DNA from: Actinomycetes bacterium
GTDB taxonomy: Bacteria > Actinomycetota > Acidimicrobiia > Acidimicrobiales > RAAP-2
DNA: 33,281 bases
Assembly (NCBI GenBank): GCA_021779735.1
Contig: JAJYAC010000015.1
Coordinates: forward strand, 1 to 33,281
Reading direction: 5' to 3'
Numbering within the stretch: the stretch's first letter is position 1; each line of letters begins with the position of its first letter. The position numbers were made by a program, and so were the translations under genes. Positions 3,447-32,031 of this stretch are shown one piece after another. The notes under the pieces are model-generated. The model was not told the origin of the DNA. It saw only the letters and a list, made by a program, of their open reading frames with translations, and did not search any database.

Positions 3447-4157
3447 ATGGATCTTGGGCCCGCGCGCGGTGGACTTCGATTGGAGCACGTGTGTCTGCGC
3501 TTTGGCGATGGCGACGAAGAGGTTAACGCGCTTGATGACGTGTCCCTCGAGGTCAACGCCGGTGAGGTGGTGGCGGTGCTGGGTGCGTCGGGCTCAGGCA
3601 AGTCGAGCCTCCTCGCCGTGGCGGGTGCGATGCGTCAGCCCGACAGTGGTCAGGTCTTCTTAGGAGACGCTCTCGTGACCGATGTGCCGGAGAAGCGTCG
3701 CAACGTCCTTCGCCGGGACCGCGTGGGCTTCGTGTTTCAAGGCTCGAACCTGCTGGCGTCACTGACCGCACTCGAGCAGTTGGAACTGGTGGGCCGAATT
3801 GGCCGTGCGCCACGGGAGGCGACTCGACGAAGGGCACTCGATCTCCTTGAGGAGGTCGGACTCGCGGCGAAGGCGGGTCGTCGGCCCGCGCAGCTATCGG
3901 GTGGCGAGCGTCAGCGGGTCGGAATCGCTCGGGCGCTCATGGGCGAACCCGTGGTGCTTCTCGTTGACGAGCCCACGTCCGCGCTTGATCACCAGCGGGC
4001 CATCGACATCGTGTCACTCCTGGGCGTCGAAGCGCGCCGACACCAGATTGCCACCCTGACGGTCACGCACGACCGTTCCGTGGCCCGTTTGGCCGATCGG
4101 GTGCTGGAGATGCGCGACGGCCGTCTCGTCGTCCCCACTGACGCGTCGCTACCCTAG
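3447..4157 (+). CDS. ABC transporter ATP-binding protein, MacB/LolD type
   Basis: ATPase partner of the preceding permease. Start 3447 follows GGAGGAG (3434-3440) by 6 nt; a GTG at 3426 overlapping the permease stop is the alternative. All nucleotide-binding motifs are present in order: Walker A GASGSGKSS, Q-loop FVFQGSNLL, signature LSGGERQRVGIARAL, Walker B VLLVDEPTSALD and H-loop TVTHDRS. Length (236 aa) is normal for LolD/MacB-type subunits. With the permease it should form a homodimeric exporter energised by ATP in the cytoplasmic membrane; no periplasmic adaptor gene is next to it. The TetR gene begins 5 nt after its stop. Confidence 0.92.
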   Translation: MDLGPARGGLRLEHVCLRFGDGDEEVNALDDVSLEVNAGEVVAVLGASGSGKSSLLAVAGAMRQPDSGQVFLGDALVTDVPEKRRNVLRRDRVGFVFQGSNLLASLTALEQLELVGRIGRAPREATRRRALDLLEEVGLAAKAGRRPAQLSGGERQRVGIARALMGEPVVLLVDEPTSALDHQRAIDIVSLLGVEARRHQIATLTVTHDRSVARLADRVLEMRDGRLVVPTDASLP

Positions 4158-4162
4158 ACCCC

Positions 4163-4759
4163 GTGCCCCGTATCGCCGCGCCCACCGTCAAGGAGCATCG
4201 GGACCACCAACACGAGGCGATTCTCGACGCGGTGGGCGCCATCCTGGCTGAGCAGGGCTACGAGGGAGTGGAGCTTGCCGTCGTGGGCGAGCGAGTGGGG
4301 TTGGCTCGCACGTCGCTCTATCGGTACGCCCGCGATAGGGATGAACTGGTGGCCCAGTGGTTGGAGCGAGCCTTTGGACCCGCGATGGCCGACGCTCAGT
4401 CGGTGCTCGGATCTTCGGACGCGCCGGTCGAGCGGCTCGTGACGTGGCTTGAGGGGCAGCTGGAGTTCGCGGCCGCACCTCGTGATGGGGCCGCCGCGCG
4501 ACTCATGGCCGAGTTCGACCACCTACCCGAACAGATCCAAGCGTTGGTCATCGACGGTCATCGCCCACTGCGCGACGCGCTGGCGGCCACCGTCGAGGAG
4601 GCGTTGGCGTCTCAGCCTGAACGCGATCCGGCGCTGGTGCTCGCCCTTCTCGATGGGATCGCGGGAGCCGCAACGCGCCAGGCCGCCAGTGGCTTCAGCG
4701 CCCAACTGCGTGCTGAGACTCGTCACGCCGTCACGTCGCTCTTGTCCGGCGAGGCGTGA
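4163..4759 (+). CDS. TetR/AcrR-family transcriptional regulator
   Basis: 198 aa. The N-terminal helix-turn-helix is clear (about residues 15-60: HEAILDAVGAILAEQGYEGV, then VGERVGLARTSLYRYARDRDELV), followed by an all-helical ligand and dimerisation domain. Start is GTG at 4163; a -10-like TACCCT (4150-4155) lies 7 nt before it, inside the ATPase gene's end, so the gene may also be read from its own leaderless promoter. It probably represses the exporter operon through the inverted repeat at 2268-2294 and is released by an exporter substrate. That is inference from gene order and operator symmetry. Confidence 0.9.
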   Translation: MPRIAAPTVKEHRDHQHEAILDAVGAILAEQGYEGVELAVVGERVGLARTSLYRYARDRDELVAQWLERAFGPAMADAQSVLGSSDAPVERLVTWLEGQLEFAAAPRDGAAARLMAEFDHLPEQIQALVIDGHRPLRDALAATVEEALASQPERDPALVLALLDGIAGAATRQAASGFSAQLRAETRHAVTSLLSGEA

Positions 4760-5016
4760 CGGCGCGAGTGGCGAAAGGGCTTGGACGCCGACGGTGCCAG
4801 ACGGCACGGTGAGAGTCGGGGGAGTGCGACTTTCCGAGGGACGTCTCGAAGGGCCACTCACCGGGTCCGCGGCTCGCCTAAGACGTGGCGTCACGGGTCT
4901 CGGTAAGGCGCCACTGGGCAACGGGCGCGGCGCGCGGGTCGAGAGCAGCGAGCGAGTGTTCGCGGGGCTCGCGACGTCGGCCCGTCACTTTGGACTGAGG
5001 AAGTACTCTTGTCCGG
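4760..5016. other. Intergenic region, no gene seen
   Basis: Between the TetR gene and the next candidate start I see no convincing gene. A short hairpin GTGCC-AGAC-GGCAC (4794-4807) has no T-run. A -10-like TACTCT is at 5004-5009, seven nt before the GTG of the small frame at 5017. Confidence 0.4.
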
Positions 5017-5151
5017 GTGAACACGCTCGATGGAACTCTCGCCGTGATGCGCGGGACTTGTCTGTGCAGTCCGTCGGGTCAAGACTTCTCGCACCGGGGC
5101 GACGCCGACCAGATTTGCCGATCGCCCGGTATTCGAACTCCCGAGAAGTAG
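5017..5151 (+). CDS. Possible 44-aa protein (small ORF)
   Basis: GTG at 5017 opens a 44-codon frame ending in TAG at 5149-5151. The evidence is positional: TACTCT at 5004-5009 is 7 nt upstream, the same leaderless-promoter arrangement used by many genes in this window. The product (VNTLDGTLAVMRGTCLCS...) has three Cys and no recognisable domain. Its stop codon is embedded in the -10-like TAGTCT in front of the next gene. It may be a regulatory leader, a real small protein, or chance. Confidence 0.3.
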   Translation: MNTLDGTLAVMRGTCLCSPSGQDFSHRGDADQICRSPGIRTPEK

Positions 5152-5158
5152 TCTCGCG

Positions 5159-6148: not shown

Positions 6149-6176
6149 GGGTTCGCACGAGCCCTACCATCGGGTC

Positions 6177-7556
6177 ATGGACTACAACTTCACGACCATC
6201 ATCGAGCCCTTCCGCATCCACTCGGTAGAGCCCCTACGCATGACGACGAGCGCCCAGCGAGCTAGCGCGATCGACGAGGCCGGCTACAACCTGTTCAACC
6301 TGCGCGCCGAGGACGTCCTGATCGACCTCTTGACCGACTCGGGAACGGGGGCGATGTCGCGCGACCAGTGGGCGGCGATTCAACACGGCGACGAGAGCTA
6401 CGCCGGCTCACCGTCGTGGTTCCGCTTTGAGGCCGCGGTCAAGGAGCTCTTCCCCTTTCGCCACGTGATCCCCACACACCAGGGCCGCGCCGCCGAGAAG
6501 ATCCTCTTCAGCGTGCTCGGTGGTGAGGGCAAGATCGTGCCCAACAACACGCACTTTGACACCACGCGCGCCAACGTCGAGGCGAGCGGGGCGGAGGCGC
6601 GCGACCTCGTCATCGAAGAGGGCCACGACGCGGCCACCCTGCACCCCTTCAAGGGCAACATGGACCTCGACGCTCTCGAGAACCTGCTGGCGACGCGGCG
6701 TGCTGACGTTCCCGTGGTCATGATGACGATCACGAACAACTCCGGCGGTGGTCAGCCGGTGTCGCTCGCGAACCTGCGCGGCGTCTCGGAGATCTGTCGG
6801 CGTTATAACGTTCCCTTCTTTCTCGACGCGTGCCGATTCGCCGAGAACGCGTGGTTCATCCACGAGAGGGAGGAGGGACAGGGCAACCGCGAGATTCCCG
6901 ATATCGTGCGCGAGATCGCGAGCCTGGCCGACGGCATGACGATGTCGGCCAAGAAGGATCCCTTCGGCAACATCGGTGGCTGGCTGGCGATGAATGACGA
7001 CGCCCTCGCCGAGGCGGCGCGCAACCTGCTCATCCTCACCGAGGGCTTTCCCACCTACGGCGGCCTCGCCGGACGCGACCTCGAAGCACTGGCCCAGGGG
7101 CTCAGCGAGGCCGTGCACCCGGACTACCTGCGCTATCGCATCCGCTCGACGGCCTACCTCGGTGACGCCCTCACTAGGGCCGGCGTGCCCGTCGTGCGCC
7201 CGATTGGCGGACACGCCGTCTACATCGACGCCAAGGCCCTCTTGCCCCACCTCGATCCGCTTACCTACCCCGGCCAGTCATTGTGCGTGGCGCTCTACCT
7301 CGCTGGCGGCATCCGCAGCGTGGAGATCGGCTCGGTCATGTTCGGCCGTCACCCCGACGGGACCGAGTCGCCGGCCGCGATGGAGCTCGTGCGCCTCGCG
7401 ATCCCGCGACGCACCTACACCCAGAGCCACATCGACTACGTCATTGAGGTCGTCTCGGCCGTGGCGAAGGACGCATCGTCCCTGCCGGGATACGCGATGA
7501 CCTACGAGCCGGCGGCACTGCGTCACTTCACCGCTCGCTTCAAGCCACTGGGGTAG
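6177..7556 (+). CDS. tnaA: Tryptophanase (tryptophan indole-lyase)
   Basis: PLP-dependent beta-eliminating lyase that splits L-tryptophan to indole, pyruvate and ammonia in the cytoplasm. 459 aa, close to E. coli TnaA (471). Family motifs are clear: LIDLLTDSGTGAMS, THQGRAAE, DACRFAENAWFI, and TMSAKKD with the PLP lysine at about Lys260. Tyrosine phenol-lyase is the near relative. Three positions that separate the two are all tryptophanase-like here: Asp128 (Thr in TPL), Ile384 in VEIGS (Arg in TPL) and His450 in LRHFTA (Phe in TPL). TACCAT (6165-6170) lies 6 nt before the ATG, so the mRNA is probably leaderless; there is no TnaC-type leader. No tryptophan permease is adjacent. Confidence 0.92.
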   Translation: MDYNFTTIIEPFRIHSVEPLRMTTSAQRASAIDEAGYNLFNLRAEDVLIDLLTDSGTGAMSRDQWAAIQHGDESYAGSPSWFRFEAAVKELFPFRHVIPTHQGRAAEKILFSVLGGEGKIVPNNTHFDTTRANVEASGAEARDLVIEEGHDAATLHPFKGNMDLDALENLLATRRADVPVVMMTITNNSGGGQPVSLANLRGVSEICRRYNVPFFLDACRFAENAWFIHEREEGQGNREIPDIVREIASLADGMTMSAKKDPFGNIGGWLAMNDDALAEAARNLLILTEGFPTYGGLAGRDLEALAQGLSEAVHPDYLRYRIRSTAYLGDALTRAGVPVVRPIGGHAVYIDAKALLPHLDPLTYPGQSLCVALYLAGGIRSVEIGSVMFGRHPDGTESPAAMELVRLAIPRRTYTQSHIDYVIEVVSAVAKDASSLPGYAMTYEPAALRHFTARFKPLG

Positions 7557-7600
7557 GTGGCGGCCCGGGCGGTCCAGGGCACCATCGCTAAGGTGAAATC

Positions 7601-8107: not shown

Positions 8108-8333
8108 TTGAGCGCAGGTCCTCGAGAACGAAGTCTCCGTCTCGCCAGTAGCCCATCTGATCGGGCCAGTTCATCCGAACCCCGAGGGTGGTGCGATAGC
8201 CGCGTTCGCCGAGTGCTCGTTTGGCCCGTGGGCGCCTCGTGTTGACTCCGGCCGCCGTCGCAATCCCCGCGTCGTGGACGAGGGACTCCGCGCCGGTGAT
8301 CAGCGCGTCGGCGTCGACTGGCCGGCGAGACCG
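8046..8333 (-). pseudogene. Remnant of a GNAT-type acetyltransferase (C-terminal half)
   Basis: Immediately after the lgt stop codon, in the same frame, 96 codons stay open with strongly coding-like third positions. The translation resembles the second half of a GNAT fold: ADALITGAESLVHDAG, then GVNTRRPRAKRALGERGYR, the place where GNAT enzymes have a GV...RA...YERLGYR motif. There is no ATG, GTG or TTG before residue ~60 and no N-terminal half (acetyl-CoA loop) anywhere nearby, so it looks like a decayed gene fragment. Readthrough from lgt is possible but unsupported. The last part overlaps the end of the DinB gene. Confidence 0.5.
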
Positions 8334-10219: not shown

Positions 10220-10369
10220 GGATTCCACGTTACCGGCTGAGGACGGGCGCGGTCGCGGCCGATCTCGTAAGAACTTCTGTACTTCCTGGTCACATCGGGC
10301 TTAATCTCGAGGAATCGCGACGTGACTCACTCATCTGGCGCGCGTGGCCGGTCCGAATAGGCTCACGGC

Positions 10370-11308: not shown

Positions 11309-11318
11309 GGGTCGTTAT

Positions 11319-11333
11319 TAGGAACTCTTCCTA
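11319..11333. promoter_or_regulatory. Perfect palindrome in the nickel-transporter promoter
   Basis: TAGGAA-CTC-TTCCTA is a perfect 6-3-6 inverted repeat ending 2 nt before the -10-like TAAGGT (11335-11340), which itself is 7 nt before the transporter ATG at 11348. The position, between -35 and -10, suits a repressor site, for example for a metal sensor. It is also 11 nt after the lyase stop but lacks a T-run, so a terminator is less likely. Confidence 0.45.
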
Positions 11334-11347
11334 CTAAGGTGGCCGCT

Positions 11348-14103: not shown

Positions 14104-14155
14104 AGGTGAGAACCTACCGTTTCGCCGCGGCGCGACGACGACGTAGTCTGAGGTG
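14104..14155. promoter_or_regulatory. Divergent leaderless promoters
   Basis: The 52-bp gap between the leftward mcd-like gene and the rightward small gene contains two -10-like hexamers in opposite directions: TAGGTT on the minus strand (14111-14116, 7 nt before the mcd ATG) and TAGTCT on the plus strand (14144-14149, 6 nt before GTG 14156). Their -35 regions must overlap, so the two genes may be co-controlled. Confidence 0.5.
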
Positions 14156-14593: not shown

Positions 14594-14626
14594 GCGTCGC
14601 ACGCCAACGCGGGCCACACTAGAGAG

Positions 14627-15989: not shown

Positions 15990-16023
15990 CCGGGTCGCGC
16001 CCTTGACCGGTAAGGTCGTCGCC

Positions 16024-16497: not shown

Positions 16498-16542
16498 GTT
16501 CACTACGCTTCGAGTCGTGACTGGGCCACGCGAGAGTAACTG

Positions 16543-19453: not shown

Positions 19454-19534
19454 CGATACACATTGCCAGTCATTGCGGCCCAGGCTGACGTTTGGGTAAG
19501 TACTATGTGCGTAGGGTAAATCCCAAGGAGCCCC
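19454..19534 (+). promoter_or_regulatory. sufB promoter region (divergent from ptrB)
   Basis: Contains two -10-like hexamers toward sufB, TACTAT (19501-19506) and TAGGGT (19512-19517), and a ribosome site AAGGAG (19525-19530) 4 nt before the sufB ATG. A direct repeat GGGTAA occurs at 19494-19499 and 19514-19519. I see no convincing SufR- or IscR-type palindrome. Confidence 0.45.
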
Positions 19535-20935
19535 ATGACCATCGACAACCTGGACTTCAGCCGCTACCAACTGGGCTGGTCCGACGAACAGATTCCCGTC
19601 TTCAAGCCCAAGAAGGGCCTCAACGAGGCCATCGTGCGCGAGATGTCGGACATGAAGAGCGAAGAGCCGTGGATGCGTGAGTTTCGTCTCAGCGCGTTGA
19701 AGCGATTCGAGAAGAAGCCCATGCTGCCGTGGTTCGCCGAGCGGATGCCCGACCTGGACTTTAACGACATCTACTACTACATCAAGCCCACCGAGAACCA
19801 GGTCGACCGGTGGGAGGACCTGCCGGACGCCATCAAGAACACCTACGAGAGGTTGGGCATCCCCGAGGCCGAGCGCAAGTACCTCGCCGGGGTGACCGCC
19901 CAGTACGAGTCAGAGGTCGTCTTTCACCGCAATCGAGAGGACCTCGAGCGCCTCGGCGTGATCTTCTGTGACATGGACACCGCGGTGCGCGAGTACCCCG
20001 ATCTCGTGCGCCGCTACTTCGGCACGGTGATTCCGCCCAACGACAACAAGTTCGCGGCGCTCAACTCGGCGGTGTGGAGCGGTGGATCCTTCATCTACGT
20101 CCCACCGGGGGTCAACGTCGACCAGCCCCTGCAGGCCTACTTTCGCATCAACACCGAAAACATGGGCCAGTTCGAGCGCACGCTCATCATCGCTGACGAG
20201 GGGTCCCAGGTGCACTACGTCGAGGGCTGCTCGGCGCCGGTGTACTCGACCGACTCGCTGCACTCGGCCGTCGTTGAGCTCGTGGCCCTGCCCGGGTCGC
20301 GCATCACCTACACCACGATTCAGAACTGGTCGAACAACGTCTACAACCTCGTGACCAAGCGCGCGCGCGCCGAGACCGAGGCGCACGTGGAGTGGATCGA
20401 TGGCAACATCGGATCGCGCCTGACGATGAAGTACCCGAGCGTCTACCTGATGGGCCCGAAGGCCTCGGGTGAGGTGCTCTCGGTGGCCTACGCCGGTCCC
20501 GGCCAGGTCCAAGACGCCGGGGCCAAGATGGTGCACCACGCGCCCGAGACCACGTCAACGATTATCTCGAAGTCGATCTCCAAGGACGGGGGCCAGACCA
20601 CCTACCGAGGGCTCGTCAAGGTCGAAGAGGGCGCGACCGGCGCGAAGAGCTTCGTGCGCTGCGACGCGCTGATTCTCGACGAGCAGTCGGTCTCGGAGAC
20701 GAAGCCCTACATGGAGGTCGGCGAGCAAGACGCCTCGATCGGCCACGAAGCCACGGTGTCGAAGATCGGCGACGACCAGCTCTTCTACCTCATGAGTCGC
20801 GGACTCAACGAGGCTCAGGCAATGGGCATGATCGTCAACGGCTTCATTGAGCCGGTGACGCGCACGTTGCCAATGGAGTACGCCGTCGAGTGGTCTCGCC
20901 TCATCGAACTCCAGATGGAAGGCTCGGTCGGCTGA
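19535..20935 (+). CDS. sufB: Fe-S cluster assembly scaffold SufB
   Basis: 466-aa core scaffold of the SUF system; with SufC and SufD it forms SufBC2D, on which Fe-S clusters are built from SufS/SufU sulfur. It opens with the usual SufB start (LGWSDEQIPVFKPKKGLNEAIVRE), followed by a right-handed beta-helix region (GGSFIYVPPGVNVDQPLQAYF, YTTIQNWSNNVYNLV) and the C-terminal helices EATVSKIGDDQLFYLMSRGL. Cys376 (FVRCDALIL) matches the cluster-assembly Cys405 of E. coli SufB. Start is set by AAGGAG and the family N-terminus. First gene of the rightward suf group. Confidence 0.96.
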   Translation: MTIDNLDFSRYQLGWSDEQIPVFKPKKGLNEAIVREMSDMKSEEPWMREFRLSALKRFEKKPMLPWFAERMPDLDFNDIYYYIKPTENQVDRWEDLPDAIKNTYERLGIPEAERKYLAGVTAQYESEVVFHRNREDLERLGVIFCDMDTAVREYPDLVRRYFGTVIPPNDNKFAALNSAVWSGGSFIYVPPGVNVDQPLQAYFRINTENMGQFERTLIIADEGSQVHYVEGCSAPVYSTDSLHSAVVELVALPGSRITYTTIQNWSNNVYNLVTKRARAETEAHVEWIDGNIGSRLTMKYPSVYLMGPKASGEVLSVAYAGPGQVQDAGAKMVHHAPETTSTIISKSISKDGGQTTYRGLVKVEEGATGAKSFVRCDALILDEQSVSETKPYMEVGEQDASIGHEATVSKIGDDQLFYLMSRGLNEAQAMGMIVNGFIEPVTRTLPMEYAVEWSRLIELQMEGSVG

Positions 20936-20970
20936 GTTCAGCGATTGAGTGACAGACTACGACCGTGGGA

Positions 20971-21315
20971 ATGCGCGAAGAGTGTAAGCACTTTCAGAGC
21001 CGCACGTACAACTCCGGTGAGGTCGCGCGATTCTGCGTGCTGGGCAACGCCCCCGACCAGCCGTGGTCGTGCCCCGAAAACTGTCCCACTTACGAACGGC
21101 GATTCGCCGACGTGGGCTGGAGCCACGGTTCGCTGGTGGATCGACCCGTTGAACTTGCGCCTGACTCCTCGGTGCCTCTCGATGAGCGGCGCGAATTGCT
21201 CGACGCCGCCAGCGAGATTGTGAACGCGGTGGCGCCAGAGTTGATCGAAGAGAGGCGCCGTGACGTCGAGCAACAGACGCGAAGTTCGCGTGGATGGAAG
21301 TTCTGGCGGCGCTAG
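20971..21315 (+). CDS. Small four-cysteine protein in the suf locus
   Basis: 114 aa, function unknown. Numbered from ATG 20971, Cys5, Cys22, Cys34 and Cys38 form a C-x16-C-x11-C-x3-C pattern in the first third (EECKHF, RFCVLG, SCPENCPTYERRF). The rest is an acidic helical segment and a basic tail (RSSRGWKFWRR). The four Cys suggest binding of zinc or an Fe-S cluster. It starts 35 bp after sufB, so a role in cluster assembly or iron handling is plausible (inference). A -10-like TACGAC is 7 nt before the ATG; a GTG at 20965 is an alternative. Its stop shares CTAG (21312-21315) with that of the convergent isomerase gene. Confidence 0.7.
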   Translation: MREECKHFQSRTYNSGEVARFCVLGNAPDQPWSCPENCPTYERRFADVGWSHGSLVDRPVELAPDSSVPLDERRELLDAASEIVNAVAPELIEERRRDVEQQTRSSRGWKFWRR

Positions 21316-22136
21316 TCTCCGCGATAGACCGGTGGACGCCGTTCGACGAAGGCGGCCATTGCCTCGGCGAGATCGTTGCTCTTGAGATACATCGTGTTCC
21401 AGCGCGCGACGAAGTCGAGTCCGTCGGCAATGGCTCGCTCGTCGGCCGCGCGCAAGACGGCTTTGGTCCCGCGAACGGCGAGGGGCGAATTGGCCGCGAT
21501 GCGCGCCGCGAGGTCGCGCGCCGCGGCGAGGACGTCGTCGAAAGAGTCGTGGACCGCGTTCACGAGGCCAATTGACTCGGCCCTCGCCGCCGTGATGTCC
21601 TCGCCGGTGAAGGCGAGTTCTGCGACGTGTCCCGCGCCAACAATGCGCGGTAGACGCTGCAAGGTGCCAAGATCCGCGACGATCGCCACCTTCGTCTCGC
21701 GCACGCTAAAGAGCGCGTCGGCACTCGCGAGGCGAATGTCCGCCGCGCAGATCAAATCCACGCCGCCTCCGATGCAGTACCCGTGCACGGCGGCCACGAC
21801 GGGCACGGCGAGATTGGCGAGGGCATTCACCGATGCCTGCATCTCGCGCACCGCGCCGTAGGAGGCCGCGCTCGCGGCGGCCGGGCTCGCGGCCGGCACT
21901 GGCGTCACGAGGGGCCCGGCGAGTTCCTTGAGGTCGAGGCCGACGCTGAAGTGCGGCCCGCGAGCCGCGAGTACCACGGCGCGAATCTCGTGATCGGCCC
22001 CGAGCGCCTCGCAGGCAACCGGTAGGTCGCGCCACAGGGCCCGCCCCAGGGCGTTGCGCGCCTCGGGTCGATCGAGCCACAAGGTGGCGACGTGGCCGTC
22101 GACGTCGAGGGACAAGACATCAGATGAGAATTCCAT
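21312..22136 (-). CDS. Enoyl-CoA hydratase/isomerase family, delta3,5-delta2,4-dienoyl-CoA isomerase type
   Basis: Crotonase-fold enzyme, 274 aa. ATG 22136 follows GGAGG by 5 nt; an ATG at 22148, 4 nt after TAGTCT, is an alternative leaderless start. The oxyanion-hole region is AVHGYCIGGGVDLICAAD. Three acidic residues match the catalytic set of mammalian dienoyl-CoA isomerase ECH1 (Asp176, Glu196, Asp204) in identity and spacing: Asp127 (GGVDL), Glu147 (VRETK) and Asp155 (VADLGTLQRLPR). The enzyme would process unsaturated fatty acids with odd-numbered double bonds. It lies between sufB and sufD on the opposite strand and is not expected to serve Fe-S assembly. Confidence 0.85.
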   Translation of the reverse strand: MEFSSDVLSLDVDGHVATLWLDRPEARNALGRALWRDLPVACEALGADHEIRAVVLAARGPHFSVGLDLKELAGPLVTPVPAASPAAASAASYGAVREMQASVNALANLAVPVVAAVHGYCIGGGVDLICAADIRLASADALFSVRETKVAIVADLGTLQRLPRIVGAGHVAELAFTGEDITAARAESIGLVNAVHDSFDDVLAAARDLAARIAANSPLAVRGTKAVLRAADERAIADGLDFVARWNTMYLKSNDLAEAMAAFVERRPPVYRGD

Positions 22137-22211
22137 AGCAGCCTCCATCGTCAGACTAGGTCGGTCGAAACTCTCCTCTCGACCAGTACACTTGCCACGG
22201 CCCACGCCGCT

Positions 22212-23447
22212 ATGACGACCTTCACCGACGCCGCAACTGACTACCTCGCCCCCCTCGGTACCGACGACGTCCGCCGTCGGGCGTGGGCGGCCTTCGAGCA
22301 GGTCGGACTGCCGACGACGAGCGACGAGGTGTGGCGTTACGCCCCCCTGGCCGACTTCTCGTTGGACCGCTTCACCCCGGTGAGCGTGCCGCGCCTGGTC
22401 GCGACCTCGGAGTTCGCCCAGAGGCTCGCCGCGCGCGGGGCTCTCGTCGTTCGCGTCGTCGACGGTTTCCTTGAGGACGGCCCAGAACTAGAGGGCGTGC
22501 GCGTCGAGTCCCTCGACGACGAGCGAAGCCTGGACGGCCAGTCGCGACTGACGCGCTACGCGGGAGACGCCTTCGCCCTGCTCAATGCGACCTTCGCTCC
22601 CTCGACCATCGTGGTGCGCGTGGCGCCGGGCGTGCACGTGGAGCGGCCGATCGTGGTGCTCAACGTCACGAACTCGTCGACGTCGTTCCCGCGCCTGCAC
22701 GTCGAAGTCGGCCGAGGAGCCAACGCCACCGTGGTGGAGTACCTCGAGGGGGGCGAGGACGCGCTCGTCGTCCCCCTGACCGAGTACCACGTGGGCGAGA
22801 ACGCGTCGCTCCAGGTGGTGACGTACCAGCGTCTCGCCCCCTCCGCCTGGCACGTCGGGCGCTCTACCGGCTTTCTCGAACGCGATGCGCGCCTGCGTCA
22901 GGCCGTCGTTGGCGTGGGCGCTCACTACGACCGATCTCGAAACGATGCCGAGATGCGCGCCAGCGGCGCGTCGAATGAGTTGCGCACGACGTACCTCGGG
23001 GCCGGCGAGCAGGTGCACGACTTTCGCACCCACCAGTTCCACGTGGCGCCGCGCACGCAGTCGACACTGCTCGCCAAGGGGGCCGTCGCCGACCGTTCGC
23101 GTTCGATCTACACCGGACTCATCGAAATCGAAAAGGGCGCCAAGCGCACCGACGCGCGCCAGACGAATCGGAACCTGCTGCTCTCGCCCAGCGCGCACGC
23201 CGACAGTGTCCCGAACCTGGAGATTCGCGAGAATGACGTCGTGTGCGCTCACGCCTCTAGCGTCGGTCCCCTCGATGAGATGCAGCGCTGGTACCTCGAG
23301 TCGCGGGGCGTCGAGCGAGCTGACGCGGAACGACTCATGATTCAGGGGTTCTTTAACGAGATGATGGTGGCGCTGCCCGACGACGTGGCACTGCTCATTG
23401 AGTCCGACGTCAACGCCGCGTTGTCGGTCGTCGAGGTCCACGCGTGA
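22212..23447 (+). CDS. sufD: Fe-S cluster assembly protein SufD
   Basis: 411-aa SufD partner of SufB in the SufBC2D scaffold. N-terminal helices TDAATDYLAPLGTDDVRRRAWAAF and PTTSDEVWRYAPL are typical, followed by the beta-helix (VVRVAPGVHVERPIVVLNV, NATVVEYLEG, ASNELRTTYLGAGEQVHDFRTHQFH) and C-terminal DEMQRWYLESRGVERADAERLMIQGFFNEM. TACACT (22187-22192) gives a promoter with a leader of about 12 nt. Its TGA overlaps the Rieske gene's GTG (GTGA, 23444-23447), so sufD, Rieske and sufC' form one coupled operon. Confidence 0.95.
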   Translation: MTTFTDAATDYLAPLGTDDVRRRAWAAFEQVGLPTTSDEVWRYAPLADFSLDRFTPVSVPRLVATSEFAQRLAARGALVVRVVDGFLEDGPELEGVRVESLDDERSLDGQSRLTRYAGDAFALLNATFAPSTIVVRVAPGVHVERPIVVLNVTNSSTSFPRLHVEVGRGANATVVEYLEGGEDALVVPLTEYHVGENASLQVVTYQRLAPSAWHVGRSTGFLERDARLRQAVVGVGAHYDRSRNDAEMRASGASNELRTTYLGAGEQVHDFRTHQFHVAPRTQSTLLAKGAVADRSRSIYTGLIEIEKGAKRTDARQTNRNLLLSPSAHADSVPNLEIRENDVVCAHASSVGPLDEMQRWYLESRGVERADAERLMIQGFFNEMMVALPDDVALLIESDVNAALSVVEVHA

Positions 23448-23755
23448 AGAGCGCCGACATCGGAGAGCTGGCGGACTTCGTGTCCGGGGCGGCGCGCGCG
23501 GTGCGAGTCGAAGATCGCGAACTCGTCGTGGTGCGCATCGACGACGACCTCTACGTGCTCGACGATCGCTGCAGCCACGAAGCCTTCTGGCTCTCCGACG
23601 GCGACGTCGACGTAGAGAACCGCGAGATCGAGTGCGCGCGTCACGGCGCCATGTTCAGCCTCGAGAGCGGCGAGCCGCTCTGCCTCCCGGCGACGTCGCC
23701 GGTGGCGCGCTACGACGTGGCGCTACGCGACGGGCGAGTGGAGGTGACCTGGTGA
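23444..23755 (+). CDS. Rieske-type [2Fe-2S] ferredoxin of the suf operon
   Basis: 103-aa soluble Rieske protein. Ligands are Cys43 and His45 (DRCSHEAF) and Cys64 and His67 (CARHGAMF), giving the C-x-H...C-x2-H arrangement of dioxygenase-type ferredoxins. Such small proteins often sit between sufD and sufC in Actinobacteria, where they may carry electrons for cluster assembly (role not proven). GTG start overlaps the sufD stop by 4 nt (GTGA), and its own stop overlaps the next GTG in the same way. Confidence 0.92.
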   Translation: MKSADIGELADFVSGAARAVRVEDRELVVVRIDDDLYVLDDRCSHEAFWLSDGDVDVENREIECARHGAMFSLESGEPLCLPATSPVARYDVALRDGRVEVTW

Positions 23756-24471
23756 GACTGGTCATCGAGGGACTGTGCGTTGAGGTGGCGGGCAAGGAAG
23801 TGCTGCGGGGACTGGACCTGAGCATGGACTCCGGCGAAGTCCACGTCATTATGGGCCCGAACGGGTCGGGCAAGTCGACCCTGGCCCACGCCCTCGCCGC
23901 CCGACCGGGCTACGTCGTCACGGCGGGCTCGGTCACGCTCGGCACGACAGATGTCTTGGCTCTCTCGGCCAGTGAACGCGCGCGCGCCGGTCTGCTCCTC
24001 GCACTTCAGCAACCCCTCGAGGTGCCCGGCGTACGCCCGCTCGAGATGTTGCGCGCCGCGGGCGCCGACCCCGTGGGTCTGCGCGAGCGCATGAGCGCAG
24101 AGGCCGCACGTCTGGGGCTGAGAGACGAGGTGTTGGACCGTTTCGTGAACGTGGATCTTTCTGGTGGTGAGCGCAAGCGCGCCGAGGTGGTCCAAGTCGG
24201 CGTTCTGCGACCGGCCTTCGCCGTCTTCGACGAGATCGACTCGGGCCTCGACGTCGACGCCCTCGGGGCGGTCGCGCGACGTCTCGACGCCGCGACCCGG
24301 GAGTGGGGCTGCGGCGTACTCGCGATTACTCACTTTCGGCGTCTGCTGCACGAACTCACCCCGACCAAGATTCACGTCGTCAGCGCGGGGCGCGTGGTCG
24401 CCACGGGCGGACCGGAACTGGCCGAAGTGCTCGAGCGAGATGGGTACGAACCCTTTCGCGCGCTGCCGTAG
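23752..24471 (+). CDS. sufC: SufC-like ABC ATPase (paralogue in the sufBD group)
   Basis: 239-aa SufC-type ATPase without membrane partner. Motifs: Walker A GPNGSGKST, Q-loop LLALQQPLEVPGV, signature LSGGERKRAEVVQ, Walker B FAVFDEIDSGLD and His switch ITHFRRLL. SufC hydrolyses ATP in SufBC2D. A second, more canonical sufC lies at 27527-28285; this copy is shorter and deviates at usual SufC positions (LQQPLE for the common FQYPxE; RAEVVQVG for RNEILQM). Being coupled to sufD by GTGA it is the natural partner of SufB and SufD here. Start is fixed by the overlap with the Rieske stop. Confidence 0.9.
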   Translation: MRLVIEGLCVEVAGKEVLRGLDLSMDSGEVHVIMGPNGSGKSTLAHALAARPGYVVTAGSVTLGTTDVLALSASERARAGLLLALQQPLEVPGVRPLEMLRAAGADPVGLRERMSAEAARLGLRDEVLDRFVNVDLSGGERKRAEVVQVGVLRPAFAVFDEIDSGLDVDALGAVARRLDAATREWGCGVLAITHFRRLLHELTPTKIHVVSAGRVVATGGPELAEVLERDGYEPFRALP

Positions 24472-24502
24472 CGCAGGATTTGGCGACGGGTAGAATTCTC
24501 TG

Positions 24503-25828
24503 ATGGCCGAAGGACGTCACAGCGCAGGGCGAGGACGACCGGAGGGGACCTCGCCGACGTCGGGGGCCCTGGCCAACGAGCAGCGCCTCCTCGCTCTGGG
24601 CGACGCAGTGGACCGTCACGCCGGGGTCGCGCCGAAGAAGAAGCGCCAGCGGGGTTCGCGTCGGCGCTACCTCATCATTAGCGCCATCGTCGTGGTGGGT
24701 CTCATCGCCGGTGTCCTCGGTGGGGGATACCTCTACGCCCAGTGGCGGTTCAGCCAGATCACCAAGGTCAACGTCTCGGGCGAAGTCCAGACGATCCCGA
24801 ATCAGCCCTTTAACATCCTCTCCATCGGCTCGGACTCGCGTGTGGGTCTCACCGGCCTGGTCGCGCGCCAGAGCGGCGCGACGACGGGTCAGGCGGCGGG
24901 GCAGCGAAGTGACGTGGTCAAGATCATGCACGTCGATCCCGCCAAGGGAACCATCACCATTCTCTCGATTCCGCGTGACACGATGGTCACCCTGCTCGCC
25001 AATCAGTCGCTCTTTGGTCGTTTCAACCGCATCAACGTCAACTACGGCAACGGTCCCTCGCTGCTGGCCCAGACCATCACCGCGAACTTCGGGATCCCCA
25101 TCAGCCACGTCGTCCAGGTGAACTTCGCGGGTCTCATCAATGCCGCCGACGCGGTGGGCGGGGTCTACCTGGACTTTCCCTATCCCGCCAAGGACCCGTA
25201 CTCCGGGCTGCGAATTCAGCACGCGGGCTGTCAGATCGTGACGGGATTTCAGGCCTTGGCGGTCGCGCGCAGTCGTCACTACTACTGGTACGAACACGGC
25301 CAGTGGAACTACGACGTTACGAGCGACTTTGGTCGCATCCAGCGACAGAACGCGTTTCTACGCGCGCTACTGAGTCGCGTCAAGAGCATCTACAACCCGC
25401 TGACCCTGAACTCCTTCCTCTCCAAGATTCCTCAGGGCATCACCCTGGACTCGAACTTCTCGCTGAACGAGCTCATCGGTCTCGCGCTCAAGTTCCACAA
25501 TCTCAATCCCAACGCCATGAAGACCTACACGTTGCCGACCCTCGGCGCCTCAAGTTCGGTGGGCGACGTTCAATTCGTGGTCGAGCCCGCGGCTCAGACG
25601 GTGCTCACGAACATCTTCGGGTCCGAGCTCCAGCGTCCGACGAACCCGCCGCCCAATTCGAGCCTCCAGACGCCGATGCCCCCAGTGATCTCGGTAACGA
25701 CGACGACCGCACCCGCGCACGCGTCCACAAGTGGGGCCGCGGGCACCTCGAGTGCACATCCCACGACCACGACGACACAGCCCCCCGAGGGTCTCCAGTA
25801 CTTCGACCCGGTGCCCTGCGCGCCCTAG
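24503..25828 (+). CDS. LytR-CpsA-Psr (LCP) family cell-wall glycopolymer ligase
   Basis: 441-aa membrane-anchored enzyme that transfers lipid-linked glycopolymers to peptidoglycan outside the cell. Cytoplasmic basic N-terminus ending KKKRQRGSRRRY, TM helix at about 54-76, then the LCP domain: NILSIGSDSR, RSDVVKIMHVDPAKGTITI, SIPRDTMV, RINVNYGNGPSLL, VNFAGLINAADAVGGVYLD and ALAVARSRHY. A Pro/Ser/Thr-rich tail follows (about 375-430). TAGAAT (24491-24496) is 6 nt before the ATG (leaderless). The TAG stop shares CTAG at 25825-25828 with that of the convergent sufU. Confidence 0.93.
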   Translation: MAEGRHSAGRGRPEGTSPTSGALANEQRLLALGDAVDRHAGVAPKKKRQRGSRRRYLIISAIVVVGLIAGVLGGGYLYAQWRFSQITKVNVSGEVQTIPNQPFNILSIGSDSRVGLTGLVARQSGATTGQAAGQRSDVVKIMHVDPAKGTITILSIPRDTMVTLLANQSLFGRFNRINVNYGNGPSLLAQTITANFGIPISHVVQVNFAGLINAADAVGGVYLDFPYPAKDPYSGLRIQHAGCQIVTGFQALAVARSRHYYWYEHGQWNYDVTSDFGRIQRQNAFLRALLSRVKSIYNPLTLNSFLSKIPQGITLDSNFSLNELIGLALKFHNLNPNAMKTYTLPTLGASSSVGDVQFVVEPAAQTVLTNIFGSELQRPTNPPPNSSLQTPMPPVISVTTTTAPAHASTSGAAGTSSAHPTTTTTQPPEGLQYFDPVPCAP

Positions 25829-26292
25829 GAGGGCGCGACGTCCGCGAGCGCCTGGGCCAACGTGTTCCAGGCGAGGGTCGCGCACTTGATGCGCACGGGG
25901 AACTTGACGACACCGGCGAGGGCCGCGATCTCTCCCAGCGTGCGCAAGTCGAGGATGATGGGCTCACCCTGGTCGTCGAGACTGCGTTCCTTGAGCGTCA
26001 TCATCTCCTTGAATCGATCGATGATGGCGTGGACCTCGACGACGGCCTTGCCCTTGACGGCGACGCTCATCATGGATGACGAAGCCTGGGAAATGGAACA
26101 TCCGTGTCCGCTCAGCTTGATGTCGGTGACGACGCCGTTGTCCACGTTGAGGTAGACCACCAGTTCGTCACCGCACAGCGGGTTGAAGCCCTCGACACGC
26201 ACGGCCGGTGGAGAGGCCAACTCACCCCGGTTGCGCGGCGTGCGGTAGTGGTCGAGGATGATCTCGCGGTAGAGGTCGTCGAGGTTTGACAC
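25825..26292 (-). CDS. sufU: SufU, zinc-dependent sulfur-transfer partner of SufS
   Basis: 155-aa NifU/IscU-fold protein. Zinc ligands match SufU: Cys40 and Asp42 (FNPLCGDE), Cys65 (GHGCSIS) and Cys137 (RIKCATLAW). The segment between Cys65 and Cys137 is longer than in IscU, as is typical of the SufU type. It accepts persulfide sulfur from SufS and passes it to SufBCD. GTG start at 26292, two nt after the sufS TAA, so sufC-sufS-sufU is one operon. Confidence 0.95.
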   Translation of the reverse strand: MSNLDDLYREIILDHYRTPRNRGELASPPAVRVEGFNPLCGDELVVYLNVDNGVVTDIKLSGHGCSISQASSSMMSVAVKGKAVVEVHAIIDRFKEMMTLKERSLDDQGEPIILDLRTLGEIAALAGVVKFPVRIKCATLAWNTLAQALADVAPS

Positions 26293-26294
26293 GG

Positions 26295-27530
26295 TTAGCC
26301 GAAGAGCGAAACGGCTTCGCCCAGCGCCTCGATCAGCACGTCGGTGTCCGACGTGAGTGAGTAGGGTCCAAATGACGCGCGCGCCGTCGCCGCGAGGCCA
26401 AAGCGACGCATGAGGGGCTTGGCGCAGTGGTGGCCCGGTCGCACGCAGACCCCGTACTGGTCGAGAATTTGGGCGACGTCGTGGGGATGCACGCCCTCGA
26501 CGTCCAGACTCAGCACGCCTCCTCGCGCGTGCGCGTCGGCCGGGCCGATGATCCGCACGCGTCCCGAGAATTCGCTCTCCAAGCGCGTGAGGGCGTCAAT
26601 CGTTAAGTCGTGCTCGTGAGCGGCCACGTGGTCCATTCCCAGAGCGCTCAGGTAGCGAACCGCCGCGGCGAGGCCCGCGGACTCGGCGATCGCCGGCGTG
26701 CCGGCCTCGAAACGGGTGGGGCCGGCTGCGGGCACGTAGCCGTCGGTGCGCACGTCGAGGATCATGCCGCCGCCGCCGAGGAACGGCGGCATGTCCGCGA
26801 GAATCTCCCGGCGTGCCCACAAGACGCCAATTCCGGTGGGGCCGAGCATCTTGTGGCCCGAGAACGCGAGGAAGTCAACATTGGAGGCGCGTACGTCGGT
26901 CGCCAGGTGGGCCACCGACTGCGCGGCGTCCACCGCGATGAGCGCACCGTGGCGGTGCGCGATGCCCGCGAGCTCGGCGATCGGGTTGATGGTGCCCAGG
27001 ACGTTGGACATGCCCGTCACCGAGAGCAGTTTGACGCCTCTCATCAATTCGTCAATGTTGCTCAGATCGAGGCGGAAGTCGTCGGTGACGGGTATGAAGC
27101 GCACTTCGATGCCGGTCGTCTCGCGTAGTTGGAACCACGGCACGATGTTCGCGTGGTGCTCCATCTCGCTGACGAGCACGACGTCGCCAGCACCCAGGTT
27201 GGCCGCCCCCCAGCTGCGGGCGATGAGGTTGAACGACTCGGTGGTGCCGTGGGTGAAGACGATCTCGTCGGCGCCGCCGGGCGCGTTGATGAAGGCGGCG
27301 ATGGCTTCGCGAGCGCCCTCGAAAATAGCCGTTGCCTCGTTGGCAGTCGTGTAGACGCCTCGGTGGACGTTCGCGTGGTGCAACTCGTAGTAACGGCTGA
27401 TCGCCTCGATGACGGCCCTCGGTGGCAGGCTCGACGACGCGCTGTCCAAGTACGTGATCGCTCGCCCGTTGACGACGCGCCGCAGCATCGGCGTATCGGC
27501 CCGTACTTGACGGGCGCTGAAGGTCGTCAC
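26295..27530 (-). CDS. sufS: Cysteine desulfurase SufS (group II)
   Basis: PLP enzyme that takes sulfur from L-cysteine as a persulfide. 411 aa from GTG 27530, chosen because it overlaps the sufC stop as GTGA; a GTG six codons earlier is the alternative. Features: ITYLDSASSSLPPRAV, HHANVHRGVYTTANEAT, FTHGTTESFNLIA, PLP Lys227 in FSGHKMLGPTG, and active-site Cys369 in VRPGHHCAKPLM. The YLDSASSS and HHC forms vary slightly from the most common YLDNAAT and HHCA but keep all key residues. The second gene of the leftward suf operon. Confidence 0.95.
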   Translation of the reverse strand: MTTFSARQVRADTPMLRRVVNGRAITYLDSASSSLPPRAVIEAISRYYELHHANVHRGVYTTANEATAIFEGAREAIAAFINAPGGADEIVFTHGTTESFNLIARSWGAANLGAGDVVLVSEMEHHANIVPWFQLRETTGIEVRFIPVTDDFRLDLSNIDELMRGVKLLSVTGMSNVLGTINPIAELAGIAHRHGALIAVDAAQSVAHLATDVRASNVDFLAFSGHKMLGPTGIGVLWARREILADMPPFLGGGGMILDVRTDGYVPAAGPTRFEAGTPAIAESAGLAAAVRYLSALGMDHVAAHEHDLTIDALTRLESEFSGRVRIIGPADAHARGGVLSLDVEGVHPHDVAQILDQYGVCVRPGHHCAKPLMRRFGLAATARASFGPYSLTSDTDVLIEALGEAVSLFG

Positions 27531-28285
27531 GTGCTCACCGAGCGCCACGCGTCGTAGCCGTCGTTCTCAATGCGCTCAGCCAGGGTGGCGTCACCGGACT
27601 CCACGATGCGGCCGTCGATCAGGATGTGCACACGATCGGGCGCAATCTCCTCGAGCAACTTGACGTAGTGGGTGACGAGCAGCACGCCCATCGCCGGGTG
27701 TTCCTCGCGGACGGTGCGCACACCTCGGGCGACCACGCGAAGCGCGTCGATGTCTAGGCCCGAGTCGGTTTCGTCGAGCAGGGCCACGACGGGCTCGAGC
27801 AGGGCCATCTGGAGGATCTCGTTGCGCTTTCGCTCACCCCCGGAGAATCCCTCGTTGAGGTGACGTTCGGCGAAGGCCGCGTCCATGCCGAGGCGATCCA
27901 TCCACTCGGCGAGGTCGAGACGCACTTCGAGCACGCTGAGCTCTTCGAGGCCCTTGCGCGCGGCGATGGCTTGGCGCAGGAACTGAATGACCGACACCCC
28001 GCTAATGGCCTCGGGGTACTGGAAGGCGAGGAAGATGCCGTGGCGCGCGCGATCGTCGGCACTCCAGGTGGCGATGTTCTCACCGCGCAAGAAGATGTCG
28101 CCCGCGGTGACTCGGTAGCCCGGATGACCCATGATGACGTTGGCGAGGGTCGACTTGCCGGCTCCGTTGGGACCCATGAGAGCGTGCACCTCACCCTCGT
28201 GGACCTCTAGCGACACGCCGCGCAGGATGTGGGCTCCGTCGGCGTCGACGTGCAGATCACGCAGTTCTAGGAGGGCCTCGGACAC
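27527..28285 (-). CDS. sufC: Fe-S assembly ATPase SufC (canonical copy)
   Basis: 252-aa canonical SufC: Walker A GPNGAGKST, Q-loop AFQYPEAISGVS, signature FSGGERKRNEILQM, Walker B VALLDETDSGLD, switch VTHYVKLL. The C-terminal RIENDGYDAW is also typical. TAGGAT (28293-28298 on the complementary strand) is 7 nt before GTG 28285, so this operon has its own leaderless promoter. It is translationally coupled to sufS (GTGA). With the copy at 23752 this makes two sufC genes within 5 kb. Confidence 0.95.
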   Translation of the reverse strand: MSEALLELRDLHVDADGAHILRGVSLEVHEGEVHALMGPNGAGKSTLANVIMGHPGYRVTAGDIFLRGENIATWSADDRARHGIFLAFQYPEAISGVSVIQFLRQAIAARKGLEELSVLEVRLDLAEWMDRLGMDAAFAERHLNEGFSGGERKRNEILQMALLEPVVALLDETDSGLDIDALRVVARGVRTVREEHPAMGVLLVTHYVKLLEEIAPDRVHILIDGRIVESGDATLAERIENDGYDAWRSVST

Positions 28286-28324
28286 AGGCTCGATCCTACC
28301 GGGACGGCTCTTCTCTTCGACCCT

Positions 28325-28942: not shown

Positions 28943-29014
28943 CTCTCTAGGTTCCCACGTGGCGACTTTGGCTAGTGTCGCTGGTGATACCGTCCGGTAA
29001 CGACAGGGGACGCC

Positions 29015-30130: not shown

Positions 30131-30136
30131 GGCGAA

Positions 30137-30883: not shown

Positions 30884-31509
30884 GCCGTCTCCAGCGCCTC
30901 GTTGATCGCGCCGCGAAGCTCGCGAGCGGACCCGCCGGGATCCGACGACTCGGTGAGAGCACGCACGACGACGAAGTGGCGCAGCCCCCTGTGCACCAAG
31001 TCTCCGACGTTCAGGGCGTTGACGCCGCCCGTGACGAACACGGGCCGGTCGCTACGGGTTTGGCACTCGAGTGCGTAGTCGAGGCCGGTGCCCGGGCGGC
31101 CGAGCTTGGTCGGGGTCGCCACGATCGGTCCCGCGCTGAAGTACGTCGCGTCCTGGACGAGGGCACGGTCAAATTCTGTCCTCGCGTGCGTGGAGAGGCC
31201 GACGATCGCCTCCTGCCCCAGAAGGTCGCGACAGTGCGCGACGCTGACGTCGTCTTGACCCACGTGGACGCCATCGGCACCACAGTCCAGGGCCAGGCGC
31301 GGCGAGTCGTTCATCACAAAGGGAACTCCCAAGTCCCGACAGATCGCCACCATGCGCCGCGCCGCCGCCAGGCGCACTTCGTCGGGGCGTTCCTTCTCGC
31401 GTAGTTGCACCACGTCGACTCCTCCCGCAATGACGGCGGGCAAAAAGTCGTCCATGTCATCGCGCACTCCCACGCACAGGTAGAGGCGCCGATTGGCGAG
31501 GTCGTACAC
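30880..31509 (-). CDS. thiE: Thiamine-phosphate synthase ThiE
   Basis: Joins the pyrimidine and thiazole moieties to give thiamine phosphate. 209 aa from GTG 31509, with TAGGAT 7 nt upstream and the protein starting YDLANRRLYLCVGV, as expected; the longer open frame is antisense to the Rrf2 gene. TIM-barrel motifs: VVQLREK, PFVMNDSPRLALDCGADGVH, VGQDD, GLSTHARTEFDRA, FSAGPIVATPTKLGRPG and VFVTGGVN. No other thi gene or TPP riboswitch is visible; the leaderless promoter leaves no room for one. Confidence 0.93.
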   Translation of the reverse strand: MYDLANRRLYLCVGVRDDMDDFLPAVIAGGVDVVQLREKERPDEVRLAAARRMVAICRDLGVPFVMNDSPRLALDCGADGVHVGQDDVSVAHCRDLLGQEAIVGLSTHARTEFDRALVQDATYFSAGPIVATPTKLGRPGTGLDYALECQTRSDRPVFVTGGVNALNVGDLVHRGLRHFVVVRALTESSDPGGSARELRGAINEALETA

Positions 31510-31572
31510 GGCGCTAATCCTAGGAGTTGCCTCGTGGCCGCTCGCGGGGGCCGGGTAGGGCAGAATGGGCGT
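31510..31572. promoter_or_regulatory. Divergent leaderless promoters of thiE and the Rrf2 gene
   Basis: In this 63-bp gap, TAGGAT on the minus strand (31517-31522) lies 7 nt before the thiE GTG, and CAGAAT on the plus strand (31561-31566) lies 6 nt before the Rrf2 ATG. No clear Rrf2-type palindrome was found between them. Confidence 0.5.
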
Positions 31573-32031
31573 ATGCAGATTCCCGCCAAGGCTGAATACG
31601 CGGTGCGGGCGCTTCTCACTCTCGCCACCAGTGACCACTCCGTGAGTGCCGAGCAACTCGCGCGTCAACAGGACCTGCCCGCGAAGTTTCTCGGTGCCAT
31701 TCTCTCGGACCTGCGCCGGGGAGGACTGGTGACAAGTCAGCGTGGACCCGAAGGGGGTTTTCGCCTGGCGCGAGACCCCGCGACGATCATGATCGCCGAC
31801 ATCTTGCGCGCGGTGACCGGTCCAATGGCCGGCGTGCGCGGCATGCGACCCGAAACGGTGGTCTACGAAGGCGAAGCGGAGCACCTGCGCGACGTGTGGG
31901 TCGCTGTCCGCGGCGCACTACGTGAAGTCCTCGAACACGTCAACCTCGCCCAAGTGCTGCGCGGTGAATTGCCCGATGCGGTGACGCGTTTCACGAACGA
32001 CCCGGACGCGTGGGTGACTCGTCACATATGA
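31573..32031 (+). CDS. Rrf2-family transcriptional regulator without cysteines
   Basis: 152-aa winged-helix regulator: MQIPAKAEYAVRALLTLA, VSAEQLARQQDLPAKFLGAIL, the wing GLVTSQRGPEGGFRLAR, and dimer helix IADILRAV. IscR-type members bind [2Fe-2S] through three Cys around residues 90-105; this protein has no Cys at all, so it cannot sense through such a cluster. It belongs to the actinobacterial subgroup with GVRG..PE and VWVAVRGALREVLEHVNLA. Target genes unknown; the suf operons nearby are one possibility. CAGAAT is 6 nt before the ATG. The stop overlaps rnhA as ATGA. Confidence 0.9.
   Translation: MQIPAKAEYAVRALLTLATSDHSVSAEQLARQQDLPAKFLGAILSDLRRGGLVTSQRGPEGGFRLARDPATIMIADILRAVTGPMAGVRGMRPETVVYEGEAEHLRDVWVAVRGALREVLEHVNLAQVLRGELPDAVTRFTNDPDAWVTRHI

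Follow-up and report, generated by a model that had tools for sequence, protein, structure and literature searches.

The window analysed here is the whole 33,281-nucleotide (nt) contig JAJYAC010000015.1 (G000:C17) of the metagenome-assembled genome (MAG) GCA_021779735.1, and directly before many of its start codons lies a hexamer of the form TANNNT. Very probably, these hexamers serve housekeeping-type (sigma-70/SigA-like) promoters as -10 elements, and the downstream genes would give leaderless mRNAs whose translation involves no Shine-Dalgarno (SD) sequence. Sixteen such boxes had been listed in a sequence-only reading of the window, and all 16 hexamers were found before the named start codons at the claimed distance, with a gap between box and start of 6 nt in seven cases (6177, 7601, 10370, 14156, 19453-, 24503, and 31573) and of 7 nt in nine (4163, 5017, 10219-, 11348, 14103-, 16024, 20971, 28285-, and 31509-; a minus sign denotes the reverse strand). 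Thirteen are TANNNT, and the remaining three are the near-matches that had been announced, CAATGT, TACGAC, and CAGAAT. The position of the boxes, their enrichment and conservation, and the scarcity of SD sites at the starts that they precede are observed directly; from these we infer RNA polymerase binding, the 5' ends of the mRNAs, and leaderless translation.

The window has a GC content of 65.7% and contains no Rfam match and no tRNA; the genome comprises 1.71 Mb in 108 contigs, with a completeness of 88.7%. For the protein encoded at 6177-7556, the closest named homologs among the best 80 of 594 matches come from MAGs labelled Actinomycetes, Actinomycetota, and Acidimicrobiaceae, the top three being 84 to 87% identical. 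Genes were called blind to any motif, by codon score alone, in the window and in 40 other stretches of the same genome, which together make up a sample of 510,884 bases and 448 genes (about 30% of the MAG). The gene caller was custom-made (codon scores, greedy overlaps), and the resulting starts are approximate. By spacing alone, from which operons were also deduced, the genes were sorted into operon-first, short-gap, and operon-internal ones. Forty relatives were searched, 24 of the same genus and 16 of the same order.

In this sample TANNNT shows a sharp peak at gap 6, which bears out the genome-wide enrichment over shuffled sequence that had been proposed as a check. Among operon-first and short-gap starts, 41 of 279 carry TANNNT at gap 6, against a mean of 1.73 and at most 6 in 100 shuffles. 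Elsewhere the counts are 8, 7, 6, and 4 at gaps 7 to 10, 2 each at gaps 3 and 4, none at gaps 0 to 2 and 5, and 2.3 per gap at distances of 12 to 30. Operon-internal starts had the box at gap 6 in 4 of 134 cases; SD cores were present in 30 of these 134, versus 2 at a control distance. For window starts picked by coding score alone, TANNNT stood at gap 6 or 7 in 8 of 30, where shuffles predict about 0.4, and these comprised 7 of 21 operon-first or short-gap starts and 1 of 9 operon-internal ones.

Conceivably, such a peak could be created by start calling, as an in-frame TAG or TAA at -12 would act as a stop, the next start would be called, and TARNNT would appear at gap 6. The gap-6 hexamer is indeed in frame with the start codon, and TAG is its commonest beginning (29 of 47). 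However, TAYNNT, which holds no stop codon, peaks just as sharply (15 at gap 6, 0 to 2 at every other gap up to 15), divergent gene pairs retain the peak (22 of 124), and neither TGANNT (3) nor TAR without the final T (4) peaks at gap 6. Hence, the gap-6 peak is not a stop-codon by-product. Likewise, TAGNNT occurs 2, 5, 1, and 1 times at the in-frame gaps 3, 9, 12, and 15 versus 29 times at gap 6, and the out-of-frame gap 7 is found in the ortholog footprint too (49 rows, beside 58 at gap 6; see below). We consider an artefact of this kind extremely improbable.

TANNNT was also counted outside this genome. A second genus sample (six other genomes, outside the syntenic region) had it at gap 6 in 27 of 190 starts, against 1.5 per gap; four genomes of the order had 10, 11, and 7 of 224 at gaps 6 to 8, and ten loci from named Acidimicrobiia-like MAGs had 12 of 61 at gap 6. 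Among 50 starts from eight loci of other named Actinobacteria, two had it at gap 6 and two at gap 7; a single Solirubrobacter locus gave 0 of 9. In alphaproteobacterial control loci, 101 starts yielded 1 case at gap 6 and 3 at gap 7, with 0.73 and 0.74 in shuffles. As a separate observation, 6 of 57 blind first or short-gap starts in Chloroflexi-labelled loci had TANNNT at gap 6, versus 0.07 in shuffles; leaderless promoters seem to be common in these loci too.

The boxes are conserved among orthologs in the genus. For the ten listed TANNNT starts with genus orthologs, TANNNT was found at gap 6 or 7 in 107 of 113 rows (58 at gap 6, 49 at gap 7). The 198 rows for 15 window genes absent from the list contained none, and seven control spacings gave 0 to 1 of the 113 rows. 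Of the six misses, two have the box at gap 8 and four belong to 14103-. Each genome contributed its best match only, and rows had been dropped beforehand when identity was below 45%, when the alignment began past residue 25, when there was no start codon within 10 codons, or when there was too little upstream DNA. Because related genomes are not independent (L043 and G002 are probably one genome), the Fisher value for the footprint is descriptive only. The three listed starts that lack TANNNT (19453-, 20971, and 31573) are left out on both sides of this count; their orthologs have TANNNT at gaps 5 to 9 in 0 of 29 rows. Anchored on the hexamer, identity to the window is 0.51 to 0.65 for the four preceding bases and the inner bases and only 0.22 to 0.48 for positions -30 to -5. 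At order-level loci, where the rows, like those of named relatives, were judged by eye among at most 12 listed per gene, the box still adjoins the start in most listed rows for 14103- and 28285-.

A mixture model with three start classes (leaderless, SD, and no signal) learned a hexamer with T at 0.82, A at 0.96, G/C-rich inner bases, and a final T at 0.99, placed at gap 6 in 67% and at gap 7 in 13%. By its estimates, the leaderless class covers about 27% of genes overall and favors the first gene of a transcript, with 34% of first and 43% of short-gap genes versus 11% of internal ones. With fixed parameters, 0.1 to 0.7% of first genes were classed as leaderless in four shuffled sets. When the model was re-learned on four shuffled sets, the motifs were diffuse and the "leaderless" class still received a weight of 0.21 to 0.26; the class weight by itself thus proves nothing, and what counts is how sharp the motif is, along with the null obtained at fixed parameters. 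These results bear on another explanation, in which the hexamer would be no promoter: leadered mRNAs would be translated independently of an SD, and the hexamer would be an A/T-rich spacer that prevents structure from forming in the initiation region. A high-GC genome with starts that lack an SD would suit such a role, but three fixed bases (T, A, T) mostly at one spacing are something other than general A/T enrichment, and the signal is rare in operon-internal genes. We find the spacer explanation hard to credit. As for the density of boxes in the window, which had been described as high, 10.2 of 31 genes are expected to be leaderless with the window held out of training and 11.7 of 31 with it included, compared with 106 of 403 (26%) elsewhere. 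The window is slightly rich in this respect but not exceptional, and a special density, at 10 to 12 of 31, can be ruled out.

SD-like sites are scarce before the boxed starts, with 1 of 57 TANNNT starts versus 112 of 369 others in the own genome (p = 2e-7) and 1 of 41 versus 60 of 247 in the genus sample. A 16S search for the anti-SD tail gave no match within this MAG. In the mechanism that we propose, RNA polymerase would recognize mainly the -10 element, usually TANNNT and in fewer cases a TGN-extended NANNNT; a clear -35 element is not seen. Transcription would start at a purine 7 to 8 nt downstream, that is, at the A or G of ATG or GTG, on the opening base of the start codon or about one base away at most. 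The ribosome would then engage the 5'-terminal start codon, while many operon-internal genes of the same genome would use SD-like sites instead. A variant of this proposal accepts the boxes as true -10 elements and lets the RNA start a few bases off the start codon, or from a second upstream promoter, so that the genes would be only partly leaderless. The smaller counts at gaps 7 to 10 among own first and short-gap starts are in line with this, as are gaps that differ by at least one base among orthologs of one gene. On the other hand, the mode lies exactly at gap 6, fitting a +1 on the start codon, and SD sites are scarce before such starts. We judge partly leaderless expression unlikely, if by no means far-fetched.

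Several observations weigh against leaderless promoters as described here. No -35 element could be discerned: at least four matches to TTGACA occurred, per spacer of 14 to 21, in 0 to 2 of 57 own, 0 to 3 of 41 genus, and 0 to 3 of 25 order promoters (the 3 of 25 at spacer 17), no conserved block lies at -35, and the classical -35/-10 sigma-70 pattern was not seen. As no -35 stands out, the promoters rest on the -10 alone. A pyrimidine at -1, expected if transcription slips to the start codon in gap-7 genes, is a mere tendency: it is there in 9 of 10 such starts of the own genome, 11 of 14 of the genus sample, and 7 of 13 of the order sample. For the order, moreover, the SD contrast was not significant (2 of 25 versus 60 of 273; p = 0.12). 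Furthermore, the order genome G026 (75% GC) had TANNNT at gaps 0 to 12 in 0 of 55 first and short-gap starts; its internal starts had it in 2 of 8 at gaps 6 to 7, and the gene caller found just 69 genes in 100 kb there. Gap 6 and gap 7 account for 4 and 4 boxes in the window and for 43 and 6 in the rest of the sample, a difference that we can attribute to nothing other than small numbers. Starts 4163, 16024, and 19453- score weakly under a model that learned from the sampled genome with the window left out. Finally, the TAAGGT boxes (7601, 11348, and 16024) can be read as SD-like, the model verdict on 11348 is even (0.49 versus 0.49), and an inverted repeat overlapping the 11348 box could itself be the conserved element.

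For the flavin reductase family gene at 16024 (TAAGGT, 16011..16016, +, gap 7), an SD misread as a -10 was rejected, since the orthologs keep the promoter letters and lose the SD letters. TANNNT is present in 8 of 8 and AAGG in 1 of 8, the other seven reading TAGTCT, TAATGT, TAGCCT, TAGTGT, TAGGGT, and similar. This argument is weaker for the NicO nickel transporter family gene at 11348 (TAAGGT, 11335..11340, +, gap 7; TANNNT in 12 of 12 orthologs), because most orthologs keep AAGG and an inverted repeat overlaps the box; by eye, most of the 12 have TAAGGT, and about four read TAGGGT, TAGGTT, TAGTGT, and TAGCCT. The SD-like reading is also possible at the DinB family gene 7601 (TAAGGT, 7589..7594, +, gap 6), where the leaderless score is 4.39, the SD score is 2.88, and the start ranks first of 8. 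The inverted repeat itself, TTATTAGGA-N5-TCCTACTAA, lies at 11315-11337 (+) and overlaps the -10 of the NicO gene, which extends to 11340, and similar arms are visible in most genus orthologs. The element at 11315-11340 looks like an operator on a putative leaderless promoter, perhaps a metal-responsive one.

The near-matches led to a second form of the box, in which TGN precedes a hexamer without the first T. This pattern, TGN-NANNNT, is conserved in three gene families. It occurs before the oligopeptidase B family gene 19453- (TGG-CAATGT, 19460..19468, -, gap 6) at gap 5 to 7 in 10 of 10 rows including the window, eight of them at gap 6. The gene for a metallo-beta-lactamase (MBL)-fold hydrolase, 28942- (TGG-GAACCT, 28949..28957, -, gap 6), was absent from the list of the sequence-only reading and has the pattern at gap 5 to 6 in 22 of 22 rows including the window, 21 at gap 6; the TANNNT-trained model scores this start below zero (-1.16). 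The third family is that of 20965, a revised start discussed below. Among blind starts, the gap-6 counts of TGN-VANNNT were 6 for the own sample, 3 for the other genus sample, and 4 for the order, against means per gap of 0.72, 0.61, and 0.44; single background gaps reach 4, 4, and 2, respectively, and the genus count alone stays within the shuffle maximum (3). The pooled Poisson probability of 5e-8 assumes an even background, despite the single gaps just mentioned with counts of up to 4. The syntenic genus set, with 12 at gap 6, was kept out of the pool because it contains orthologs of the genes in the window.

TG goes with the hexamers that lack the first T. At gap 6 it accompanies 6 of 19 of these in the own genome versus 1 of 47 with the first T (p = 0.0017); the genus sample points in the same direction (3 of 11 versus 1 of 29; p = 0.056), and the order sample is not significant (4 of 18 versus 1 of 12; p = 0.62). 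This association suggests that TG stands in for the first T of the -10, and such a substitution appears to be the case here. We lean toward two heritable classes of leaderless promoters, TANNNT (rarely with TG) and TGN-VANNNT, each kept within its gene family across the genus. If so, the -10 that marks the translation start would come in two interchangeable codes, the second of which is missed by start-finding rules built on TANNNT only.

Alternatively, the three listed sites without TANNNT may be chance near-matches before leadered genes. This would agree with 20971 being wrong as listed (score -1.90) and with the lack of a clear gap-6 peak for VANNNT without TGN in the own sample (13 versus a background of 11). 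Against it, CAATGT at 19453- is TGN-NANNNT in every row, and CAGAAT at 31573 (31561..31566, +, gap 6; Rrf2 family regulator), which has no TGN, is CANNNT at gap 6 in 11 of 11 rows including the window, within a longer conserved block to which, at a guess, the Rrf2-family product itself binds. Moving the start from 20971 to 20965 likewise yields TGN-NANNNT at gap 6 in 10 of 11 rows including the window. Chance resemblance strikes us as improbable.

The claim that the -10 rule chooses between alternative starts held where orthologs can judge and failed once. Orthologs favor 10219 over 10147, 14156 over GTG 14153, 16024 over 16003, and 31509 over 31884, all as the rule has it. It failed at 20971 because, as written, it did not include the TGN variant. 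The start two codons upstream fits better, ATG or GTG being present at the position of 20965 in 11 of 11 rows; 20971 was rejected and replaced by GTG 20965, which opens a 116-aa protein without an NCBIfam match and is preceded by TGA-CAGACT (20950..20958, +, gap 6). With the TGN variant, at least one start is corrected and 28942- is added as a further gene; the finding as a whole offers a practical rule for picking start codons in such MAGs. Scored by the model that had not been trained on the window, 13 of the 16 listed starts come out on top of all in-frame starts in their own open reading frame (ORF), the exceptions being 4163 (third of 16), 19453- (fourth of 54), and 20971 (fourth of 10).

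Of the other listed boxes, those on the forward strand include TACCAT (6165..6170, gap 6) before 6177, a member of the beta-eliminating lyase family PF01212, for which 12 rows of named relatives were listed, six of them unaligned at the start; by eye, TANNNT is at gap 5 to 7 in 6 of the 6 that align from residue 1. TAGGCT (10358..10363, gap 6) precedes the HpcH/HpaI aldolase family gene 10370 and is matched in 9 of 9 genus orthologs and, at gap 6 to 8 and by eye, in 4 of 4 listed order-level rows (L173, L175, L181, and L220). TAGTCT (14144..14149, gap 6), with 17 of 17 orthologs, belongs to the DUF6941 protein gene 14156, and TAGAAT (24491..24496, gap 6), with 9 of 9, to the LytR/CpsA/Psr family gene 24503. 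On the reverse strand, TAACGT (10227..10232, gap 7) stands before the NlpC/P60 protein gene 10219- (TANNNT at gap 6 to 8 in 9 of 9 orthologs), and TAGGAT (31517..31522, gap 7) before the ThiE thiamine phosphate synthase gene 31509- (9 of 9). The acyl-CoA dehydrogenase gene 14103-, divergent from 14156, has TAGGTT (14111..14116, gap 7) with 13 of 17 orthologs; in its four misses the nearest-start rule picked a downstream codon, and the alignment shows the box ahead of an upstream ATG. Two listed boxes are less secure. TACCCT (4150..4155, +, gap 7) before the TetR family gene 4163, 5 nt after an upstream stop, is weak (score 0.67), and neither 4163 nor 7601 has orthologs in the loci searched. 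TACTCT (5004..5009, +) lies 7 nt before GTG 5017, which opens a 44-codon ORF with a score of 1.80; it ranks first, but among 3 in-frame starts only, and the ORF has no homologs in the loci searched. A gene at 5017 is doubtful.

A set of SUF genes occupies 19535-28285 on both strands and includes two SufC homologs that are 44% identical to each other. One, at 23752-24471 (+), follows sufD and a ferredoxin-like gene; the other, at 27527-28285 (-), lies with sufS and sufU and has the box TAGGAT (28293..28298, -, gap 7) before start 28285, with TANNNT in 22 of 22 orthologs (10 at gap 6, 12 at gap 7). The two kinds of SufC are present in 23 and 22 of the 24 other genomes of the genus. At the order-level sufC loci L147, L149, L151, and L152, a palindrome-like sequence, CTCCTACG...GTAGG-AG or CACTAC...GTAGTG, stands just upstream of the -10 box and may be a regulator site. 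Upstream of sufB, at 19497-19535 (+), a block comprising TACTATG..., TAGGG, and then AAGGAG before the ATG is kept in most of 8 orthologs; sufB is thus a candidate for a leadered, SD-type gene in the same window, possibly with a regulator site. For sufD at 22212 (+), TACACT/TACAAT-like boxes lie about 18 to 22 nt before the start in the window and 10 orthologs, and an SD-like site is found in 1 of the 10 only, so perhaps sufD represents a third arrangement, with a very short leader and no SD.

The leaderless habit is already well known in Actinobacteria, as the sequence-only reading had also stated. In the study of Zheng et al. (2011; PMC3160421), TANNNT lies about 10 bp ahead of starts, and leaderless genes are reported for 86 of 89 actinobacterial genomes, at about 20%. 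Their TA-led leaderless genes of Actinobacteria and Deinococcus-Thermus carry the same signal as the genes described here, and several of the low-GC genomes in that work show a TG peak before the box; the name "Acidimicrobium" does not occur in its main text. The consulted portion of PMC10783764 names the Acidimicrobi- class once, in a table of anti-SD types. In Deinococcus-Thermus, TANNNT stands directly before about one third of ORFs and has been mutation-tested, with spacing requirements (PMC12340547); this is a different phylum, and the word "extended" is absent from the main text of that study. For the field, our results are thus confirmatory. They add an uncultured genus, apparently of the Acidimicrobiia, to the known cases of leaderless expression, supply estimates and ortholog footprints for it, and contribute a minor promoter variant, a modest refinement.

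It is only the exchange of TG for T that should interest promoter specialists. In literature on leaderless and extended TGN promoters, judged by titles save for PMC3898074, no title concerned TG replacing the first T in leaderless promoters. Start-site mapping in Mycobacterium tuberculosis (Cortes et al. 2013; PMC3898074) gave TANNNT without a conserved -35, a purine start in 85%, C as the commonest base at -1, and, by experiment, leaderless transcripts for 26% of genes with a primary start site. According to that report, TGN occurs in 7% of TANNNT promoters as an addition, whereas here its main partners are hexamers without the first T. Housekeeping sigma factors have been described as recognizing promoters in a mix-and-match fashion, in which elements complement one another (PMC5333181), and a -10 whose first T is replaced by TGN would exemplify this principle. 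What differs from that account, as far as the consulted text goes, is that the exchange would here mark out a class of promoters that is conserved, presumably leaderless, and lacking a clear -35 element.

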